Notes under the pieces: generated by a model
What the model was told of the DNA's origin: nothing
Seen by the model: the letters and a program-made list of their open reading frames with translations, nothing else
Database searches by the model: none
Source of the DNA: Struthio camelus
Taxonomy: Eukaryota > Chordata > Aves > Struthioniformes > Struthionidae
Reading direction: 5' to 3'
Assembly: GCF_040807025.1 (NCBI RefSeq)
Contig: NC_090952.1
Span: 25,789,068 to 25,853,067 of the forward strand
DNA: 64,000 nt
Part shown: in pieces, positions 43,801 to 46,800 of the stretch
How positions within the stretch are numbered: position 1 is the stretch's first letter
How the letters are laid out: the number at the start of each line of letters is the position of its first letter
Position numbers and translations under genes: made by a program

Positions 43801-46800
43801 TGTGATCCTGCAGTAGCGCAAAGGCTGCGCAGCGGTAACGCGCATTGCGTGCGATGTAGCCCTTGTGAACGGTTGACTAGATGATTAATCTCTGATTGGG
43901 TGACTGCCGAAGCTCCAGGCTGCAGCCTTTTGGATAAAATCGGGTTGTAATGCATTTAGAGTCCAGACATCAAATTTAACGTTCAAGTTTCTGTATGGGC
44001 CTGTCTGGTAGATTAATGATTCTGGTTGGCCGTTCACTGTATCTAGGGGCAATCGATAGAGCACAGCAGTTCGCAGCGATAGCGTGGCGCCGTGCTGTTA
44101 GGATGCGCAGCGATTTCTTGCGCTTGCATTACAGGGACCTAAACCTTCATGCAATCCTGTCATTTGAGGTTTTGAAGCTGTAGATGATTAAATGTATTTG
44201 AAGAAACTGGGAAATGAGATCGGGTACGTCATCTCATTTGAGAAGGACAGTTGAAACTGAAGAATGGCTGCGTCTCTTTTTCAGTAGTTTTTCTAACTCA
44301 TTTTCTATCCCTTTTAGACCACTACACGCTTTAAGAGTTCTACCTCATGGAAGGAAGTTGTTTTTACGCACTTTTTTTTTTTTTTTTTTAATGCACTTAA
44401 TGGTGGCAGCTAACTCTGCTGTAGTACTCGAATTATTTCTAAGACTGCTTCTGAGGTAACCTGGTGTCTGGAGGCATGTTAATTTGTTATCAGCATAACT
44501 GAAAAATGGTGGGCTTGCACCTGGGTTTTGGTTTGCGCTGGCGCAGGATCAACAGCTGTTTGCAGCGCATTAGTTTTGGCGCAAGCTAGCCTATACTGCA
44601 GGGTCACTTTTGGCTGGTTAGAGAAGGCATACTAACAATTATTTTTCTTATTTTTTTTCTTTTTTACAAATATTCCCCTTCCCTTGTATCTCTCTTCTTT
44701 AACTGTTCCAAGGCCTGTTACTTAAAAGCAATTGAGACTCAACCAAACTTTGCAGTGGCTTGGAGTAATCTTGGCTGTGTTTTCAATGCCCAAGGAGAAA
44801 TCTGGCTTGCAATTCATCACTTTGAAAAGGTAACTATCTAAACCCATCAGCTTTGCTAGCAGATTTTAATGCACATGCAATTGCCTACTTATGCATAAGT
44901 ACTTTTGTAGATGGTAGATAAATTCTGATCAGCAGAGAACTTCTTAAAATCCTGTTAGTTAACATCTTAAGTTAATCCTTTTTTACTTCCTGATGTTTCA
45001 GAGTGCCTGTATGCCACTAAAGAGATATGTTTAGAATTGCCCTAAGGACTTCACACACATGTCAAAGATAAGAAAACTCATTAAGTTGTTTTACAGTCCT
45101 TTTTTGGAATAGAATTTTTTAAAATCTAATTCTGATGGGAATACTGTTTTGAGTATGTATATTGTTTTATGTGTGTGTGAGAGAAGCAACTTTGTTTAAA
45201 ATCTCTTTTTCATTATGATCCTGTTTCAGGTGTTCTTGCTTTCTTGTGAGTGACTGAGGAGAACAAATTAAAGGGGTACACTCATTCCTCTTCTTCAGGA
45301 TTTTTTTCACCACTAGTGTTTCAGGCTTCTCTAGATTAGATGGATAAGGTTAATTCTTACTTGAATGTGTTGTCTGATACCTTCTGTGTAGTTATCTGGT
45401 TAGCATATGAAGTCAGTTTGTGCTGATTTCTAAGCTTTAAGTGACCTAAAACCAGGTTTAAGATGTGGCGGACAGTTTCTTCCTGGTATTTCTGACTTAC
45501 AGAGCTACAGAAATTTTTTTTGACTTTTTGGGGAGGGATGAGAGGGAGGTTGTCCCTGTGTTCTAGTTAATAATACATTAAGTATTTTAATTTGAAAATA
45601 ATAATTCCCATGGGAAAGACTGTGTGATTCATGCCAATGTTTGGCTTGCCAAATACTTACAGAAGATGCAGTACTAAACTATAGGTTACTGTATCAGCTG
45701 TTCTGAGGGTTTTTTTTTTTTTTACATTTTATTATTTTTATGGGGAGTGAATTTTTTGTATGTTAAACGACTACAGTTATTTTCCACACACGTGACGTGT
45801 TTGCTTTTTTCTTGCTCTTCTGGAACTACTAAAGCTAGAAAACACTAATCTTATAGTGGATAAAGGATGCAGATCAGTTTCTTGGGGTTTTCTCCCCTAA
45901 AACAAATTAAAGACAAAACAGCACGGGTGGGTAGTTAGGTATGATTTAACCTAACATGGAATACATGTTTAACATTTCATTCTACAGTAGTGACAATTGG
46001 TGTCAGCTGATATTTATTCTAATATGCATAAGTTTGGTGGGAACTAGGTCATGGCTTAGGTAAGCAAATGAGTGAATTTGAAGATAGTATATTCTGTCTT
46101 TTCTACAGATAGAAAAAAAAAAAAAACCTGTCGTGCACTGAGTTGATTCAGAAGTAAGCATAAGTGTAGCTGCTGTATGATGGGTTTGTTTAACTTCAGT
46201 TTTCCTCCCTCACTAGGTTGTTGGATTAAAATCTTAAATGTTTACAGATTGGGTTTGTCAGTTAAAAAAAAAAAAAACTCTGTTTCATAGAGAACATTTA
46301 TGCGTTAATGCTCAAAGCTCTTACTTTAAAAATATTTTCAGGCTGTAACGCTTGACCCAAATTTTTTGGATGCTTACATCAATCTGGGGAATGTCCTGAA
46401 GGAGGCAAGGATATTTGACAGGTAAGTAGATAAGTAGTGTCACTCTTAGCAGCAGCCTGTCAGATGTATCAAGGTATAGATTAGGTTCCTGATGTAAAAT
46501 CTCTTTGGACAGTATAGTGAAAACCTCTGCTCAAAGGCAAGAAAGCAAATGGCTTTGGAACGCATGCAGAGCAGGATACTGGAATTCAGACAAACGTTCT
46601 GTGGAATATACTGTTTTTCATTTTTGTTTTTTGTTTTTAAAATGCTACTTCCCTGTATTTAGTAAAATGTTAAAAATTAGAGTTTCTGAAGGCATCGATG
46701 AAAAGAGACTTGAAGTTAAGGCTGCGAAAAAATGTGTCTGAGGATGTGTCTGAGAAAAGCGTGCAAGTACCCTTGGGTACTCTGTTTTCATTTTGTGATT

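Follow-up and report, generated by a model that had tools for sequence, protein, structure and literature searches.

A conserved segment near the 3' end of intron 4 of the OGT gene of Struthio camelus, which corresponds to the start of the human mOGT isoform, is read here as a regulatory RNA within the detained intron of OGT, probably working by base pairing with the counterpart of the decoy exon of the same intron. A probability of about 0.55 is assigned to this reading, in which pairing with the decoy appears as the best single account of the evidence and the duplex as a testable candidate. If true, a pairing between the decoy and the terminal splice site gives the decoy block a structure testable by a few mutations, explains why a supposed protein start lacking an AUG is conserved, and argues against mOGT as a general isoform.

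The window, i.e., the whole 64-kb stretch of DNA analysed, carries the OGT gene on the + strand at 38.5-61.8 kb. Residues 1-1046 are covered piecewise by tblastn with human OGT as the query. The part of interest lies between exons 4 and 5:

41665-41733, + strand: OGT exon 4 (tblastn with human OGT, 23 residues, 100% identity), ending at AAG/GTAGGT in phase 0.
41734-44712, + strand: OGT intron 4, 2979 nt, the counterpart of the human detained or retained intron.
44713-44829, + strand: OGT exon 5, placed by tblastn with human OGT and by boundary reading.

Human intron 4 is a detained intron, through which OGT controls its own level (PMC12017769). Its detention is regulated by O-GlcNAc and involves a decoy exon, 143-153 nt long, which overlaps a splicing silencer and has U2AF bound to its 3' splice sites; how the decoy acts is called unclear in the available text (PMC12017769). 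The published work on this detention (Park 2017, Parra 2018 and 2020, Govindan and Conrad 2025) concerns the same gene and the same intron as the present analysis.

The conserved segment and the codons around it are the following:

44587-44589, + strand: in-frame TAG stop, two codons 5' of the ATA; GAG in the mammalian primer 4R.
44593-44595, + strand: ATA replacing the human mOGT ATG, from the sequence and the human primer comparison.
44593-44631, + strand: conserved segment and proposed downstream duplex arm, from the 24/25 match with human at 44593-44617 and the duplex statistics.

The human mOGT cloning primer atgctgcagggtcacttttggctgg, as printed in PMC4901358, equals the sequence at 44593 in 24 of its 25 bases, the only mismatch being the third base, the G of ATG. 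The runner-up site on both strands of 34-62 kb reaches 16/25, and the likeness to the human mOGT start noticed in the initial annotation is thereby borne out. The human primer encodes M-LQGHFWL (PMC4901358); here, the ATA is followed in the exon 5 frame by CTGCAGGGTCACTTTTGGCTGGTTAGAGAAGGCATA, beginning with a CTG at 44596-44598. The ATA lies 120 nt before exon 5, so that ATA and CTG are both in frame with it, and translation and coordinates agree on the claim that the final 120 bases of the intron continue into the exon 5 frame. The DNA is thus homologous to that of human mOGT, with the same frame relation to exon 5 and the same residues LQGHFWL. It differs from it by the ATA in place of ATG, by the TAG two codons upstream, and by the distance to exon 5, since the human start sits 150 bp before the exon (PMC4901358). 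Translation from the TAG at 44587 to exon 5 contains no Met, hence no in-frame ATG, and the nearest in-frame ATG further upstream, at 44506, is closed by that same TAG. With the ATA, the upstream TAG and the missing ATG, an AUG-initiated mOGT is impossible in the reference sequence, as had been proposed. The residues VREGI are taken by us to belong to the human mOGT start as well, and the pieces QIFPFP and SLTxP, presumably from the human 50-residue N-terminus, are readable here in the tract, in the two other frames. If that N-terminus is as we assume, nucleotide similarity would continue beyond the segment without the frame. The end of conservation some 13 codons in, at the pyrimidine tract, which the initial annotation reads from the sequence, is putative.

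The presumed upstream partner of the segment lies in the second half of the intron:

43722-43776, + strand: decoy 3' splice site, from the sequence, with a CTAAC branch-site match, a pyrimidine tract and an AG at 43775-43776; the AG-free zone is 56 nt.
43777-43899, + strand: decoy exon counterpart, its start given by the 3' splice site, its end uncertain, at a weak GT at 43900.
43865-43881, + strand: 5' arm of a local stem inside the decoy counterpart, with pair probabilities of 0.94-1.0 (0.54 for a single terminal pair), unchanged across three fold windows.
44021-44037, + strand: 3' arm of the local stem, pairing with 43865-43881 in the same way in each fold containing the stem.

The mammalian primer 4F matches 19/20 bases at 43787, inside the decoy counterpart and just 3' of the succession of CTAAC, pyrimidine tract and AG, which suggests that the start of the decoy exon is conserved. 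The published OGT decoy is in this sense recognisable by its start and its 3' splice site, and intron 4 appears to contain a decoy exon with a 3' splice site of its own. For its 5' splice site, there are weak GTs only; the best-scoring one (43900) yields an exon of 123 nt versus 143-153 nt in human. Inclusion of the decoy would lead to a premature TGA at 43882-43884 in the exon 4 frame, and the counterpart is open in this frame for 35 codons (43777-43881) up to that stop. The fold of 43832-44093, around the local stem, has a z of -3.3, reached by 0/200 shuffles. The stretch 43777-44130 also holds a repeated 13-mer around GCGCAG.

Folding of 43722-44712 revealed a 14-pair core helix, 43802-43815 with 44594-44607, joining the decoy to the "mOGT start". 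The elements on the decoy side are:

43781-43816, + strand: upstream duplex arm, -38.9 kcal/mol by RNAduplex with 44593-44631; core 43802-43815.
44532-44551, + strand: second candidate partner of the decoy arm (43803-43822), 17/20 paired, fold probability 0.00-0.01.

The complementarity of segment 44593-44631 to the decoy exceeds chance. When the segment is set against 829 tiles of the window, its best partner is the decoy (-38.9 kcal/mol), which leads by 0.1 only over the tile at 51129 (-38.8 kcal/mol). In 39-nt windows over the 64 kb, the best partner lies at ~43780 (-38.9) and the next reaches -35.5. The value of -38.9 is attained by 3/2000 shuffled decoys, 2/2000 shuffled segments, and 1/200 shuffled introns. 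Searching from the other side with 43781-43819, also in 39-nt windows, gives 44533 (-40.0) and 44593 (-38.9) as the top two partners, above GC-rich windows. If the entire decoy exon is the query, GC-rich windows elsewhere lead and 44593 falls outside the top ten. Since 44532-44551 and the segment are complementary to the same decoy arm, they would compete for it.

Of 18 equivalent OGT intron segments, that of intron 4 is the only one with its best partner in its own intron, a result made likelier than for short introns by the length of intron 4; in the within-intron test, 2/120 shuffled segments reach the score of the segment. Another OGT intron segment, i6, has a stronger partner elsewhere (-58.2). 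Two mammalian differences fall in the core helix: at 43806, the U-G pair found here becomes C-G, and at 44595, the A-U pair becomes G-U, with the mammalian base opposite 44595 assumed unchanged. The first (T>C) gains 2.6 kcal/mol and ranks first of 45 transitions, 6/135 substitutions being as good; the second, A/G at 44595, is unremarkable alone (45/135 as good). Taken together, the two are matched for stability by 369 of 8910 substitution pairs (4.1%). The mammalian primer differences include no double compensatory change between the arms.

The best surviving alternative is that the segment is a linear splicing sequence, composed of a distal branch site, an AG-free zone and upstream protein-binding motifs, the complementarity to the decoy being coincidental or the functionless remnant of an old inverted duplication. 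We regard this as possible, on the unlikely side. The signals before exon 5 to which it appeals are listed here with the neighbouring hairpin:

44630-44636, + strand: TACTAAC, a perfect branch-site consensus, with its A at 44635, 77 nt before the intron end.
44615-44627, + strand: 5' arm of the splice-site hairpin, inner pairs at 0.9-1.0 in both folds covering it, mean 0.92 in another.
44693-44705, + strand: 3' arm of the splice-site hairpin, directly 5' of CCAAG/GCC, from folds and duplex.

The AG-free zone of exon 5 measures 84 nt and is the longest of the 18 OGT introns placed, the other 17 ranging from 1 to 49 nt with 3' splice sites placed by eye, the zone of 1 perhaps belonging to a misplaced site and unplaced introns being omitted. 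Together with the perfect TACTAAC, this zone shows the layout of a distal branch site. Recursive splicing at the segment was discarded on inspection, AG/GT being absent.

The behaviour of the helix in longer folds also speaks for a linear sequence. The core helix has a probability of 0.8-0.95 in folds of 43722-44712 and 43722-44640, but drops to 0.0 when the whole intron or 43000-44900 is folded; the 43000-44900 fold puts 43165-43181 opposite the first half of the segment. Forcing the core helix into 43000-44900 costs 6.7 of 510 kcal/mol, a penalty that we regard as within the uncertainty of this kind of fold. In an unguided, ungapped ranking of helices over 26 kb, the core helix comes 18th, inside the range of three shuffles. 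In favour of the pairing, the region as a whole is more stable than shuffles: z is -3.2 for the fold of 43777-44607 (0/100 shuffles) and -2.35 for that of 43722-44712, against -1.1 and +0.8 for two other parts of intron 4. A scan of 199 windows of 262 nt does not single out the region: 43598-43859 is at rank 6, and the best window starting in 43700-44600 at rank 14. Furthermore, the OGT decoy causes retention when moved into other introns (PMC12017769, PMC8706089), so pairing with the segment is not required for retention as such; it would tune OGT retention, not create it.

Two points stand against the linear alternative. Branch-site recognition should not need bases lying 13-37 nt upstream, and this is where the human-matching bases 44593-44617 stand relative to TACTAAC, beyond the need of a branch site. 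In addition, the complementarity is the best in the 64-kb window and is kept by the two differences from mammals.

The splice-site hairpin (44615-44627 with 44693-44705) is stable in each fold covering it; its duplex is reached by 2/300 shuffles and its fold by 8/300. It is not special on its own: intron 4 is third of 18 introns both by duplex energy and by z (two stronger duplexes, two lower z), and the intron end finds equally good partners at two further places in intron 4. In another OGT intron, i8 (49114-49244), the last 25 nt pair with the preceding stretch at -26.0, compared with -17.0 in intron 4.

The pairing with the decoy could operate as follows. Within the pre-mRNA, pairing of the decoy exon with the first half of the segment (43802-43815 with 44594-44607) would loop out ~780 nt and set the decoy splice sites next to the exon 5 branch site and 3' splice site. 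The second half of the segment would either fold into the hairpin that covers the 3' splice site of exon 5 or lengthen the decoy duplex. Decoy exons have been proposed to make a non-productive contact with terminal splice sites; such pairing would promote this contact and so help to hold intron 4 back. The human AUG would then come down to an A/G difference, whichever way it arose, that still allows a G-U pair, with mOGT as a by-product. A broader version, which we consider doubtful, is that of an RNA switch across amniotes: the segment would pair either with the decoy or with the 3' splice site of exon 5, the decoy arm would have two competing partners (44532-44551 and 44593-44631), and the choice would set the extent of OGT intron detention and hence the OGT level.

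Long-range intronic duplexes of the insect Dscam1 type (PMC8042237), which loop splice sites together, likewise involve complementary sequences far apart in introns, with a potential choice between splice partners. Here, in contrast, a decoy exon would be the partner in a putative duplex, and retention would result. The published OGT decoy acts via splice-site recognition and SFSWAP; the available text of PMC12017769 makes no mention of a base-paired contact with the region before exon 5, and "secondary structure" has 0 occurrences in it. Likewise, base pairing of the OGT decoy is named in no title or abstract start among the matches listed, a search coverage that leaves out most subscription papers.

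A DNA regulatory element of the intron, either an enhancer or an internal promoter that includes the segment, is a far weaker proposition and very unlikely in our view. According to a review (PMC5547530), uc.475/HINCUT-1, an ultraconserved transcript, is a retained intron of OGT and its DNA has enhancer-like activity, and the CpG observed/expected ratio is 1.05 at 43777-44130 versus 0.27-0.47 in three other parts of this AT-rich intron. However, the ratio is lower beside the segment (0.64 in 44521-44607), the segment adjoins splice signals, and any overlap of uc.475 with it is putative. The main text of the uc.475 papers gave no primer letters.

With high confidence, the segment is not a protein start. 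The absent start codon and the frame losses in mammals are stronger arguments for this than the primer comparison. In the available text of PMC4901358, the mOGT frame is present in 4 of 13 listed mammals (gorilla, orangutan, goat, and cow) and missing in the other 9, at a DNA identity of 90-100% over the 13, and the mouse frame is given as broken too; in zebrafish, fly and worm, intron 4 has no significant homology. These losses at high identity, in an intron that is regulated and detained, agree with the initial annotation, according to which the segment is probably kept for splicing and not for protein. Very likely, the segment is conserved because its RNA serves the splicing of this detained intron.

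The comparison of primers points weakly away from protein constraint. All 22 bases 3' of the start codon agree with the human primer, and exon 5 under the mammalian primers differs in 5 of 41 bases, all of them synonymous third positions. These position counts derive from the primers printed in PMC4901358, where human and mouse primers are not told apart in the text; the mammalian evidence consists of three short primers, perhaps sited in conserved spots. Primers 2F (<=14/20) and 3R (17/20 at 42148 versus 16/20 elsewhere) were excluded. The overlapping exon 4 primers 1F and 3F, kept out of the exon 5 count, are matched at 20/20 each, so the lack of change over 22 bases does not alone argue against coding. 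Similarly, the open frame of the segment is reached by 13-14% of dinucleotide shuffles and is weak evidence in itself.

An mOGT initiated at a non-AUG codon, the CUG at 44596 with A at -3, which had been mentioned as a remote option, is extremely improbable: the frame is open into exon 5, its bases are unchanged 3' of the start codon, and overexpressed human mOGT is reported to arrive in mitochondria (PMC4901358, introduction), but 54 intronic ATGs lie upstream and human intron-4 transcripts are reported as nuclear (PMC12017769), which makes CUG initiation unlikely, the endogenous protein was undetected in human cell lines (PMC4901358), and shuffles are open as often as stated above.

The non-coding nature of the mOGT start is already known, the frame losses having been reported in PMC4901358, so that the negative statement on mOGT is not new; its extension to the present genome is. 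Also new is the candidate reason for the conservation of the segment, namely its putative pairing with the decoy exon. This complementarity, the branch site just 3' of the segment and the possible splice-site hairpin are additions to the initial annotation. Matching of 13-14-base words from the region against the literature retrieved PMC4901358 alone (2/6 words), and six more words of 13-15 bases gave no match; no paper was found with the peptide MLQGHF.

Exact 23-mers of the segment and of the decoy start each match once in the own genome (1.45 Gb, 262 contigs), this match being the window itself. An exact 23-mer scan of viral_contigs and genome_contigs for orthologous intron sequence gave 0 matches, and an Rfam scan of 41700-44900 gave nothing up to E = 1. 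Near the 5' end of intron 4, at 42142-42167, the 5'-splice-site-like sequence CTTGTAAGT overlaps the start of the 17/20 mammalian primer match; this may be another conserved spot, or chance. Further inside the intron, CAG/GTGGGT at 43369-43377 is likewise 5'-splice-site-like, with a score of 5.9 versus 6.1 for the real site of exon 4.
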